Positions 3-22,147 of a DNA stretch of 64,000 nucleotides are shown here, piece by piece. This stretch comes from Methylorubrum sp. B1-46 (GTDB lineage Bacteria; Pseudomonadota; Alphaproteobacteria; Rhizobiales; Beijerinckiaceae). Under the pieces are notes generated by a model. That model worked only from the letters and a program-made list of their open reading frames with translations. It did no database searches and was not told the DNA's origin. The stretch spans positions 3,425,001 through 3,489,000 of the forward strand of contig NZ_CP088247.1 of NCBI RefSeq assembly GCF_021117295.1, in the 5' to 3' direction. Numbering within the stretch: position 1 is the first letter of the stretch; each line of letters opens with the position of its first letter. The position numbers were made by a program, and so were the translations under genes.

Positions 3-92
3 GGCGGCTTGCCCCCCCGCCCGGCGCCGGCAGCGCCCGAGATGGCGGGGGAAGGCGCCGACGTCTCGGCGCCCGGCATCGCCGCGGTCTGA
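3..92 (+). CDS. C-terminal tail of an unidentified protein (partial)
   Basis: An open frame enters from the left edge and ends at TGA 90-92. The roughly 29 visible residues are rich in Pro, Ala and Gly, as disordered C-terminal tails often are, and show no domain. Its stop codon is the first three bases of an interspersed repeat (TGATACGG...), as also happens at cysG and murI in this window. In many alphaproteobacteria an acyltransferase gene lies upstream of miaB, but nothing visible here proves that identity. Confidence 0.4.
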   Translation, partial: GGLPPRPAPAAPEMAGEGADVSAPGIAAV

Positions 93-228
93 TACGGTCT
101 CCGCTTGATCAGAGCGGGGAGCGGATCAGCCAGCCCGCGCGGCCCTTGAGGAGGGCACCCCTCGCGCCGGCGCGATGGGATCCCGCCACGGCCAGCTCCG
201 CCATCCCGAAGGGATCAACCGGATTTGG
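90..228 (+). repeat. Interspersed palindromic repeat, TGATACGG family, copy 1
   Basis: This roughly 139-bp element opens with TGATACGG, then a hairpin (TCTCCGCTT, loop GATCA, GAGCGGGGA with G-U wobbles), and ends with CCCGAAGGGATCAACCGGATTTGG. Copies lie at 22044-22147 (same orientation) and 13288-13391 (inverted). The initial TGA is the stop codon of the preceding reading frame. The middle part (about 140-195) is longer than in the other copies. Confidence 0.8.
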
Positions 229-237
229 GATGAGCCC

Positions 238-678
238 TCAGGCGGTGAGCGGAAACGTCGCCGCCTGCCCGCGCACGGTCCCGTCCTCATCGATGAGCTG
301 CCAGACGATGCCCTCGGTGACGGGAAAGCGCCGTCCGTCCTTGGCGACGCGGATGCCGGCATAGTCCGAGACGAAGCCGTCACGGGCGACCGCGTCGAGC
401 AGGCGTTGCCGCTCGGCCCGCTCCGGCGCCTCCGCCGAGAGCCGCGAGGGCATGCCGACGAACTCCTCCCAGGTGTAGCCGAAGGCTCGCTGCGCCGCCC
501 GGTTGGCGTAGACGAAGAGCGGGTCGGCGCTCGTGTCGTGGGACAGCACCGCGAAGGATGCCTGGGCGTAGAGCCAGTCCGGCCCGAGATCCGGCTCGGG
601 GATGAGCGAGCGGCCGACGAGGCGCCGGAAGCTGCCGGTCAGCAGGGCGAAGAATGTGGGATCGTCGGCAAGGCTCAT
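238..678 (-). CDS. MEKHLA domain (PAS-like) protein
   Basis: This 146-aa soluble protein consists almost entirely of a MEKHLA/PAS-like fold. The visible signature includes ANRAAQRAFGYTWEEF (about residues 59-74), a PSRLSAEAPERAERQRLL segment, and a C-terminal stretch ending in GQAATF. MEKHLA domains are found alone in bacteria and in plant HD-ZIP III regulators, where they are thought to sense small ligands or redox state; no effector domain is fused here. The gene is divergent from miaB and convergent with the left-edge gene. Its ligand cannot be read from sequence. Confidence 0.8.
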   Translation of the reverse strand: MSLADDPTFFALLTGSFRRLVGRSLIPEPDLGPDWLYAQASFAVLSHDTSADPLFVYANRAAQRAFGYTWEEFVGMPSRLSAEAPERAERQRLLDAVARDGFVSDYAGIRVAKDGRRFPVTEGIVWQLIDEDGTVRGQAATFPLTA

Positions 679-792
679 GCGCGGCTTCTACAGGATTCGG
701 AACGGAATCGTGTCGGCGTTCGATCCATGGTAAGGGGCCCCGAACCGAACATTCCCAAAAAGACGCCGCCCGTCGGCGGCAGGGTTGCGAAC

Positions 793-20406: not shown

Positions 20407-20439
20407 GGGCAGGTTCAAGCTACTCCGTCCCGCTCTCGT

Positions 20440-20570
20440 CCTCATTCTGAGGTGCTGCGAAGCAGCTTTGAGGGAGGGCTCCGGAGACCGCGCGATCCCT
20501 GGAGGCTCCTTCGGGGCCTCCGCCTCGCTCCGGCCCCTCCGGATGAGAGATGGGGCTGGAACCTCGATTC
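20440..20570. repeat. GC-rich repeat-like sequence between nasA and cysG
   Basis: The 182-bp gap holds CTGAGGTGCTGCGAAGCAGC followed by GAGGGAGGGCTCC and a GGAGGCTCCTTCGGGGCCTCC hairpin-prone run. The style is that of dispersed intergenic elements of Rhizobiales, but no second copy is in this window, so membership in a repeat family is inferred from memory rather than shown. It would sit in the nasA-cysG transcript leader. Confidence 0.4.
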
Positions 20571-20588
20571 GAGTCGTACAAGAAGACC

Positions 20589-22046
20589 ATGAGCACGCCC
20601 CGCCAACCCCGCGAAACCCGCGCCGGCCTCGAGCCGCTGGCGGTGCTGCCCGTGTTCGTGCCGCTGCAGGACAAGCGGGCGGTGCTCGCCGGCTCCAACG
20701 GGGGCGCGCCCTGGAAGGTCAAGCTGCTCGCCGCTGCCGGCGCCCGGGTCGATGTCTATGCCGAGGCGCCGAGCGAGGAACTGCGCGGCGTGCCGGCCGA
20801 GATCGCCGCCGGCTCGGTGACCCTGCACGAGCGGCGCTGGACCCCGGAGGATCTTCAAGGCGCGGCCTTCGCCATCGGCGCCATGGAGGACGAGGAGGAT
20901 TGCATCGCCTTCGTCGCGGCAGCGCGCGCGGCCGGGGCCATCGTCAACGCCGTCGACCGGCCGCATCTGTGCGACGTGAAGTTCGGCGCCATCGTCAACC
21001 GCTCGCCGCTCGTCGTCGGCATCTCGACCGAGGGCGCCGCCCCGGTCTTCGGGCAGACGGTGCGGGCGCGCATCGAGGCGATGCTGCCGCGCGGCTTCAA
21101 GCACTGGGTCGCCGCCGCCCGCGACTGGCGCGAGGCGGTCTCTTCCCGCTTCCATGGTTTCTCCGAGCGGCGCGGCTTCTGGGAGCGCTTCACCGACCGG
21201 GCCTTCGCCGAGCCGGACCGCACGCCGACGGAGGCCGACCTCACCGACCTGATGGGCCAGACCGAGGCGCTGCCGCTCGGCGGTGCCGTAACGCTCGTCG
21301 GCGCCGGGCCGGGCGATGCCGAACTGCTGACGCTGAAGGCCCTGCGGGCCCTGCGCAACGCCGATGTGATCCTCTACGACGACCTCGTCGCTCCCGAAAT
21401 TCCCGACTACGCCCGCCGCGAGGCCCGCACCATGCTGGTCGGCAAGACCGGTCACGGCCCCTCCTGCCGCCAAGACGACATCAACGCGCTGATGGTCTCG
21501 CTGGCTAAATCCGGCAAGCAGGTGGTGCGGCTGAAATCCGGCGACCCGCTCGTCTTCGGCCGGGCGGGCGAGGAGATCGAGGCCTGCGAGGCCGCCGGCA
21601 TTCCCTGCACCATCGTTCCCGGCGTCAGCGCGGCGCAGGGCGCGGCCGCCGCGCTCGGCGTGTCACTCACCCATCGCGATGCGGCCCGGCGCCTGCAATT
21701 CGTCACCGGCCACGACCGCCGCGGGGCGCTGCCCGAGGATCTGAACTGGGGGGCGCTGGCCGACCGCAGCGTCACCACCGTCGTCTACATGCCCAAGCGC
21801 ACGCTGCGGGCCCTGCTGGAGCGGGCGGTCGCCGAGGGGCTCGCCCCCGAGACGCCGGCTCTCGTCGTGTTCAACGCGACGCGGGCGAAGCAGGCCACGG
21901 TCGCCGGCACCGCCGCGGATCTCGCCGGGCGGATCGAGGCCTCGGACCTGGAAGGACCGGCGCTGCTGATGGTCGGCGAGGCCCTGCGCCGGCACAACAC
22001 CCGCGGCGCGGACGCTCCTGTCGAGATCCGGGCCGAAGCCTCCTGA
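20589..22046 (+). CDS. cysG: Siroheme synthase (CysG: dehydrogenase/ferrochelatase plus uroporphyrinogen methyltransferase)
   Basis: This trifunctional enzyme makes siroheme from uroporphyrinogen III, needed by nitrite and sulfite reductases. The N-terminal half (about residues 15-210) is the CysG/Met8-like NAD-dependent domain. The C-terminal half is the SUMT domain, with VTLVGAGPGDAELLTLKALRAL, DDLV and VPGVSAAQGAAAALG. The usual glycine-rich GGG..A.RK loop is altered (AGSNGGAPWKVKLL), which may mean a modified dehydrogenase step. ATG 20589 is chosen over an upstream ATG 20550. It lies downstream of nasA, and its TGA stop opens a palindromic repeat. Confidence 0.92.
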   Translation: MSTPRQPRETRAGLEPLAVLPVFVPLQDKRAVLAGSNGGAPWKVKLLAAAGARVDVYAEAPSEELRGVPAEIAAGSVTLHERRWTPEDLQGAAFAIGAMEDEEDCIAFVAAARAAGAIVNAVDRPHLCDVKFGAIVNRSPLVVGISTEGAAPVFGQTVRARIEAMLPRGFKHWVAAARDWREAVSSRFHGFSERRGFWERFTDRAFAEPDRTPTEADLTDLMGQTEALPLGGAVTLVGAGPGDAELLTLKALRALRNADVILYDDLVAPEIPDYARREARTMLVGKTGHGPSCRQDDINALMVSLAKSGKQVVRLKSGDPLVFGRAGEEIEACEAAGIPCTIVPGVSAAQGAAAALGVSLTHRDAARRLQFVTGHDRRGALPEDLNWGALADRSVTTVVYMPKRTLRALLERAVAEGLAPETPALVVFNATRAKQATVAGTAADLAGRIEASDLEGPALLMVGEALRRHNTRGADAPVEIRAEAS

Positions 22047-22147
22047 TACGGTCTCCGCTTGATCAAAGCGGAGATCGGATCGACAAGCCCGCACGGCGCT
22101 TGAGCGAAGTCGAAATCCGCCATCCCGAAGGGATCAACCGGATTTGG
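22044..22147 (+). repeat. Interspersed palindromic repeat, TGATACGG family, copy 2
   Basis: This element starts at the cysG stop codon (TGATACGG) and has a perfect 9-bp hairpin, TCTCCGCTT and AAGCGGAGA around GATCA. It ends CCCGAAGGGATCAACCGGATTTGG. It is the closest match to copy 1 (90-228) and matches copy 3 (13288-13391) in inverse orientation. Confidence 0.85.

Follow-up and report, generated by a model that had tools for sequence, protein, structure and literature searches.

A palindromic repeat of about 109 nt occurs in three copies in a 64,000-nucleotide stretch of Methylorubrum sp. B1-46 (contig NZ_CP088247.1, positions 3,425,001 to 3,489,000; this whole stretch is called the window below), two on the plus strand and one on the minus strand as read directly from the sequence. 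In all three, the first triplet is the TGA that ends, in frame, the gene reading toward the repeat (an OlsA-like acyltransferase gene, murI and cysG, respectively), as a preliminary description of this DNA had reported. Comparison with relatives that lack the element shows that four copies in this genome were inserted at a TGA stop that already existed, with the gene keeping its stop and the end of its protein. The repeat is probably (at roughly three chances in four) a small non-autonomous mobile element, a palindromic intergenic repeat resembling the miniature inverted-repeat transposable elements (MITEs).

Insertion at existing stop codons

None of the 12 relatives shown for murI carries the element, and in each of them the gene ends in TGA; the same holds for the seven nearest relatives at cysG (L209-L215), whereas cysG of more remote relatives ends in TAA (L216 and L217) or at a different codon (L218 and L219). 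Mapping of the flanks gives a gap of -3, corresponding to one common TGA, at four copies of the Methylorubrum sp. B1-46 genome: at locus L085 against two relatives, at L005 (copy 1 of the window) against four (empty sites in genomes G026, G051, G005 and G009), at murI against four and at cysG against three. The joined-flank alignments are ungapped in the stretch shown at three of these loci, while at cysG the divergence of the downstream flank makes gaps necessary. With more distant relatives, cysG and murI yield flank gaps of -1, -2, -7, -10, -34, -43, -57 and +52. Relative to the empty site, the filled site is longer by about 106 nt (by 141 nt for the long form) and its single TGA has become two triplets, so that it reads TGA-[TAC...GTA]-TGA or a near match, the right triplet being TGA in L085 and L005, GGA at murI and CGA at cysG. 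Because the empty sites in relatives already carry a TGA stop, the repeat inserts at an existing stop and retains it. The preliminary description had suggested insertion at gene 3' ends and had proposed a comparison with strains lacking the copy; at the four loci that could be resolved, this comparison bears the suggestion out. The copies, their parts and the genes in front of them are as follows.

90..233, plus strand: copy 1, the long form of 144 nt; the left-edge gene stops at TGA 90-92 and the right triplet is TGA
13283..13391, minus strand: copy 2, 109 nt; TGA 13391-13389 is the murI stop and the right triplet is GGA; relatives have empty sites
22044..22152, plus strand: copy 3, 109 nt; TGA 22044-22046 is the cysG stop and the right triplet is CGA; relatives have empty sites
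22044..22082, plus strand: hairpin 1 (arm 1) of copy 3, at whose foot TGA is paired with an internal TCG
22084..22102, plus strand: conserved linker of copy 3, predicted to pair; the same linker occurs in distant relatives
22111..22147, plus strand: hairpin 2 of copy 3 (arm 2, with a CCCGAAGGG loop); the right end of TATGA type, TACGA in this copy, comes next
3..92, plus strand: 3' end of the gene for the OlsA-like acyltransferase, on whose stop copy 1 is docked; NF052553 match over L005:468-1385
13389..14300, minus strand: murI (glutamate racemase, TIGR00067), on whose stop copy 2 is docked; relatives also stop with TGA
20550..22046, plus strand: cysG (siroheme synthase, NF007922), on whose stop copy 3 is docked; the nearest relatives also stop with TGA

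The three copies have a common layout, with a start TGATACGG, hairpin 1, the conserved linker (predicted to be paired), hairpin 2 with a C-GAA-G loop and a terminal pentamer of the TATGA type (GATGA, CAGGA and TACGA in copies 1, 2 and 3, respectively); the linker of copy 1 carries extra sequence with an additional hairpin. Across the larger set described below, the ends are TGATAC... on the left and mostly ...TATGA on the right, and 183 of 230 copies are 108-110 nt long. The left boundaries at TGA given previously are retained, and the right boundaries are moved outward by about 5 nt to take in the TATGA-type end. The OlsA-like gene (lyso-ornithine-lipid acyltransferase) scores 272 bits against NF052553, below the curated cut-off of 300.

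Copies from Methylobacterium and relatives were scored as docked if the first triplet was a stop preceded by at least 50 open codons in the frame with the best codon score of the six. By this codon test, docking was found in 84 of 139 copies in a first set and in 134 of 230 in the full set (233 before removal of identical flanks), compared with 580 of 17220 other TGAs of the same loci (3.4%), a clear excess of in-frame stops at the first triplet, on which the preliminary description had made its proposal depend. Of the TGAs outside coding interiors, 522/3351 (15.6%) are stops. Simple gene calls give 133/230 (58%) and agree with the codon test in 227/230; the corresponding figures for the Methylorubrum sp. 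B1-46 genome are 24/41 by codon test and 23/41 by gene calls. The three-of-three docking seen in the window thus stands there but not as a general rate, and owes something to luck, the underlying rate being near 58%. The distance back to the nearest coding stop is 0 nt in 134 copies, 1-10 nt in four, 11-50 nt in 17 and 51-199 nt in 24, with none found in 51. As a control, the ends of a second palindromic family (family B, described below) were docked in four of 28 tested cases in the same genome, many of these ends being without a stop triplet.

Docked copies use TGA in 134/134 cases, against 580 TGA, 138 TAG and 55 TAA among other coding stops (n = 773), and 73 of 97 undocked copies also begin with TGA. 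A rule requiring a pyrimidine before the TGA is reduced to a mild preference for C (98/134 docked copies versus 334/580 ordinary stops). The notion that a non-TGA right end marks an undocked copy holds in genome G028 only; among left-TGA copies, the right triplet is TGA in 103/133 docked and 58/73 undocked cases. At five loci (L179 and L178 in G031, L136 in G028, L322 and L335), a right-end TCA serves, by the codon test, as the stop of a gene converging from the opposite strand, L179 being docked on both sides. In L204 (G051) and L205 (G009), which come from two species, copies sit on the same TGA of the same gene, with upstream DNA 94% identical and elements that differ at many positions, which could arise from independent insertion or from conversion. 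Orthologous filled sites comprise two pairs of loci only, too few to test selection after insertion.

Target choice and mode of insertion

On the left, 206 of 230 copies carry TGA and five carry TCA, a constancy that is perhaps somewhat overstated as the copies come mostly from the top of the score lists of a TGA-starting model; the right triplet is TGA in 175. Equal triplets on both sides are TGA in 161 copies, TCA in three and CGA in two. Under a model in which all TGAs of a copy's own intergenic region, regardless of strand, are hit with equal chance, 95.7 docked copies are expected among the 210 of 230 copies used, compared with 126 seen and a maximum of 115 in 20000 random draws. Convergent regions come close to this expectation (67.0 expected, 74 seen), and divergent regions hold only seven of the 210 copies. 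Docking is thus largely explained by a TGA target together with tolerance at gene 3' ends.

Distant homologues and family B point to a 3-bp duplication of TNA type. In the distant alphaproteobacterial genome G623, where the elements are about 134 nt long, four of the six have matching flanks (TTA/TTA twice, TCA/TCA and TAA/TAA once each); two of three elements in G691 are flanked by TAA, as judged by eye; and in family B six of the nine readable pairs are equal, with four different triplets among them. A mobile element could have reached this distribution if a trans-acting enzyme made 3-bp staggered insertions at TNA-type sites, which in Methylobacterium would nearly always be TGA. Insertions within genes and promoters would be lost and the survivors would gather at the TGAs of gene 3' regions, among which the stop codon would be the most available harmless one. 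The hairpins would be kept because mobility requires them, and a role at mRNA 3' ends would be optional. The patchy presence of the repeat, in 41 of the 59 genomes of a sample of the genus, is counted in favour of a mobile element.

Several observations weigh against this mechanism. In eight additional copies whose flanks match less well, the gaps range from -46 to +44 without ever equalling -3, and the four sites with a readable empty state are all docked copies. Equality of the flanking triplets is incomplete: two of the six G623 elements have TGA/TGG and TAT/CAA, three of the nine readable family B pairs are unequal, seven of the 230 copies combine a left TGA with a right TCA, and 20 nearly identical, young copies in G028 have TGA on the left in 20/20 and on the right in 15/20, where strict duplication predicts otherwise. 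The left-triplet polarity of TGA over TCA is not explained by a symmetric target, since the two triplets are equally frequent in the flanks (TGA 647, TCA 661; TAA and TTA are rare, at 68 and 62). In codirectional regions 52 docked copies are seen compared with 28.7 expected, an excess that arises where other TGAs would be nearer the leader of the next gene. Because codirectional docking exceeds the region-matched expectation, selection or active targeting adds something to the TGA target, and there is room for some active preference. Finally, no mobilising enzyme was found in searches with PF01797 and PF13340, most transposase families lying outside these searches.

The polarity could arise if the element targets stop codons through its own fold, with the foot of hairpin 1 guiding the choice of TGA in one orientation. 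Among the 214 copies with a readable foot, the internal triplet that pairs with the left TGA is TCA in 126 and TCG in 63. In favour of such guidance, the G623 elements have no such foot as judged by eye and accept several TNA triplets. Against it, the five left-TCA copies have feet TCG (two), TCA (two) and TGG (one), none of which is complementary. Guidance by the foot, which draws on few families, is regarded as unlikely. If true, the element would settle behind stops, leave genes intact and place its own structured 3' untranslated region (3'-UTR) in host mRNAs.

Fold, mobiliser and rival explanations

The fold was examined with a covariance model of 38 diverse copies out of 40 selected (L311 and L339 were removed by hand as irregular), all 104-112 nt long and starting with TGA, a selection that fixes the left half of the first three pairs in advance. 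In this alignment 91.7% of the cells pair, and covariation is seen in 21 of the 31 pairs. Changes on both sides affect 166 cells compared with 53.4 in shuffles, and none of 500 shuffles reaches 166; these shuffles leave the relatedness among copies in place, and the effect is nonetheless large. The covariation score is 0.424 in the true register and at most 0.138 in slid controls. The earlier remark that the stems keep pairing despite changed bases is thereby put on a quantitative footing. Because both-side changes in the stems far exceed those in shuffles, the fold is under selection, either as a substrate for mobility or as RNA.

The second of these options is that the repeat is a host-selected RNA 3'-end module, the hairpins of which stabilize or terminate the upstream mRNA and which is retained at stops for that function. 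Folding stronger than in own shuffles (z of -4.68 for copy 3, -2.98 for copy 2 and -6.81 for one G028 copy), the stem covariation, the codirectional docking excess and published suggestions of RNA roles for repetitive extragenic palindromes (REPs; PMC3733652) and for the YPAL repeats of Yersinia (PMC2229807) are all consistent with such a module. In contrast, 21 of 200 shuffles of the long copy 1 fold at least as well as the copy itself (z of -1.36), and the hairpins lack a T-tract (a mean of 0.24 T in the 10 nt after hairpin 1 and 2.16 T in the 10 nt around the right end). Rfam 15 gave no match in the window at the gathering score and three sub-threshold hits in six loci, all of them off the element. 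The cysG and murI copies are absent at the same genes of the nearest relatives, undocked copies mostly start with TGA too, and docking is largely accounted for by the TGA target and selection. A role at RNA 3' ends is possible, while selection by the host as the origin of the docking is unlikely.

Single-strand transposition (of the HUH type, IS200/IS605-like or resembling that of REP-associated tyrosine transposases, RAYTs) into the position immediately 3' of a TGA, by an element that brings a TGA of its own as its last triplet and duplicates no target, would account for the covarying hairpins, the strict orientation relative to TGA, the identical outcome at docked sites and the unequal triplets of the young G028 copies. 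The Y1/RAYT domain PF01797 is found in only one of 15 genomes, however, being missing from six of the seven with at least 60 matches to the repeat, and the duplications of varying triplets in distant homologues and family B do not fit, which makes this route improbable. The remaining possibility, that a TGA borne by the element supplies a new stop and trims the upstream gene, would agree with the pairing of this TGA within hairpin 1 (pairs 2-41 and 3-40 in 37/38 and 35/38 sequences, all chosen for a left TGA) and with its greater constancy compared with the right TGA, but can be virtually dismissed since element-less relatives have TGA at the same codon at all four copies with readable empty sites.

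Derivation from an IS5-type element (PF13340) would fit the TNA duplication indicated by the G623 flanks, and TNA duplication is linked to the IS1031 group. PF13340 is present in 7/7 genomes with 71 matches; among 30 loci examined, none has the ends of the repeat as terminal repeats. The inverted repeats around these 30 loci differ from the ends of the element, with a single weak end-like stretch each in L501 and L502. The largest cluster of genes common to the neighbourhoods comprised seven loci in the first set and four among 221 loci, and none appeared transposase-like by eye, no family search having been run. Plasmid records gave no match to copy 3 at E<=1e-5, three weak matches to a G028 copy (two of them in Methylobacterium) and, for family B, one partial match in Streptomyces.

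Host range and relation to described repeats

The whole-genome search suggested by the preliminary description shows the repeat to be multi-copy: the 5.5 Mb genome contains 38 matches to the right-end motif at <=3 mismatches (none for the reversed motif), and a first covariance model, built from 26 of 32 copies picked by length, gives 54 matches at E<=0.01, part of which are opposite-strand echoes of hairpin 1. For the set of 230 copies, same-place duplicates, such echoes and hits below about 60 bits were dropped from the model hits, three G197 copies near 50 bits being retained. At least 60 matches are listed in seven genomes of the genus sample. Variants are species-specific, and the 20 copies read from G028 are nearly identical. 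In L185 (G011:C9:57000-60100), three tandem copies about 210 nt apart occupy positions 1481-2009, with right ends running into TACGGG and a TGA common to neighbours, suggesting either that one copy was inserted at the right-end TGA of another or that a duplication took place.

Outside the genus the repeat thins out. In a sample of the family, eight of 149 genomes match, five of these eight belonging to the genus itself, and the exact linker pattern occurs in four of 397 genomes of an order sample, all of the genus. A pattern scan of named genomes gave at least 80 loci, those listed being nearly all from Methylobacterium, Methylorubrum or Methylobacteriaceae; one listed locus in Xanthobacter autotrophicus AM5 and one in a Hyphomicrobiales metagenome-assembled genome (MAG) have only linker-type sequence without recognizable arms. 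In the latter (L347, MAG MCMED-G09), the bare linker AGCCCGCGCGGCGTCTGAGCGAAGCC stands immediately after a gene-end-like TGA, the arms being absent. With the second covariance model (38 copies, as above), matches were found in four of 385 genomes of a class sample (G000, G008, G623 and G691). The G008 match is single and by eye unlike the element; the nine matches in G623 and G691 have the linker AAGCCCGYGCGGCGYTTGAGC in common and different arms.

No description of this repeat was found in the literature searched, most subscription papers lying outside its reach. The preliminary description knew of no account of stop-codon docking; this holds for the present repeat, but stops supplied by repeat ends have been published for GTAG REPs, the ends of which often provide TAG stops and which, according to the parts of PMC3733652 consulted, lie mainly between convergent and codirectional genes, near 3' ends. 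Because GTAG REP ends have already been reported as suppliers of stops near gene 3' ends, we would call the repeat a member of the known palindromic mobile intergenic repeats, distinguished by docking that is oriented by TGA and preserves the protein. From what is accessible of PMC3733652 and PMC2817692, GTAG/CGTC-tagged REPs and their RAYTs resemble it in being palindromic, near gene 3' ends and able to supply stops; compared with GTAG REPs (20-40 bp) it is about three times longer, lacks a GTAG end tag, targets TGA rather than TAG and is accompanied by a Y1 transposase in 1/15 genomes.

YPALs adjoin stop codons on their downstream side. As excerpted from PMC2229807, YPAL/RU-2 of Yersinia is likewise a mobile palindromic intergenic repeat with both empty and filled sites and a possible influence on the stability of upstream transcripts, and its target duplications may have a counterpart here, but it is 168 bp long with duplications of 3-26 bp, and exact codon docking is not stated in that excerpt. 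The CcrM-associated intergenic repeats (CIRs) of Caulobacter and Brucella, as described in PMC2229807, are similar in length (about 110 bp), intergenic and alphaproteobacterial, with two long hairpin arms, a linker and an unclear mobility mechanism. CIRs are marked by a GANTC loop, whereas GANTC is found in the hairpin 1 region of 24/230 copies of the present repeat and anywhere in 53/230; the two are set apart by description rather than by comparison with CIR1-4 sequences, with class-sample matches in 4/385 genomes. The ERIC, RUP and Correia MITEs share a length below 200 bp, inverted termini and, apparently, target duplication, but mostly have TA termini and are A+T-rich in the part of PMC2229807 seen, compared with 3-bp TNA/TGA and two independent arms in the Methylobacterium repeat.

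Rhizobia belong to the same order as Methylobacterium. Their RIME elements, named in the section of PMC2573895 consulted, are also palindromic intergenic repeats, a likeness by description and not by sequence. MiniMdi3 of M. extorquens is a MITE in Methylobacterium; at about 400 bp and related to ISMdi3 (available text of PMC2680597), it is excluded by size as the identity of the repeat.

The repeat offers a measured case of a genetic parasite that finds harmless sites in a dense bacterial genome, its target being the commonest stop codon, which is restored on insertion, and makes it testable whether base pairing inside an element sets the choice of target. It also places a structured 3'-UTR behind many genes in a manner that varies between close species, and for annotation it means that the stop codon of many Methylobacterium genes falls on the edge of a repeat.

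Two other repeats were observed in the window. The family B palindromic element (16876..17046, plus strand) has the same terminal motif as the main repeat and TTA on both sides; read on the minus strand, the right TTA is a TAA that the codon test scores as an in-frame stop. An inner repeat of CGTCATCGCGAG type within this element may resemble CGTC REPs. A different, GAGCATCGTCCCGAAAGG-type repeat forms an inverted pair at 16767-16861 and 25863-25957 that is 82% complementary over 95 nt, and stretches resembling it were found upstream of a few undocked copies of the main repeat.

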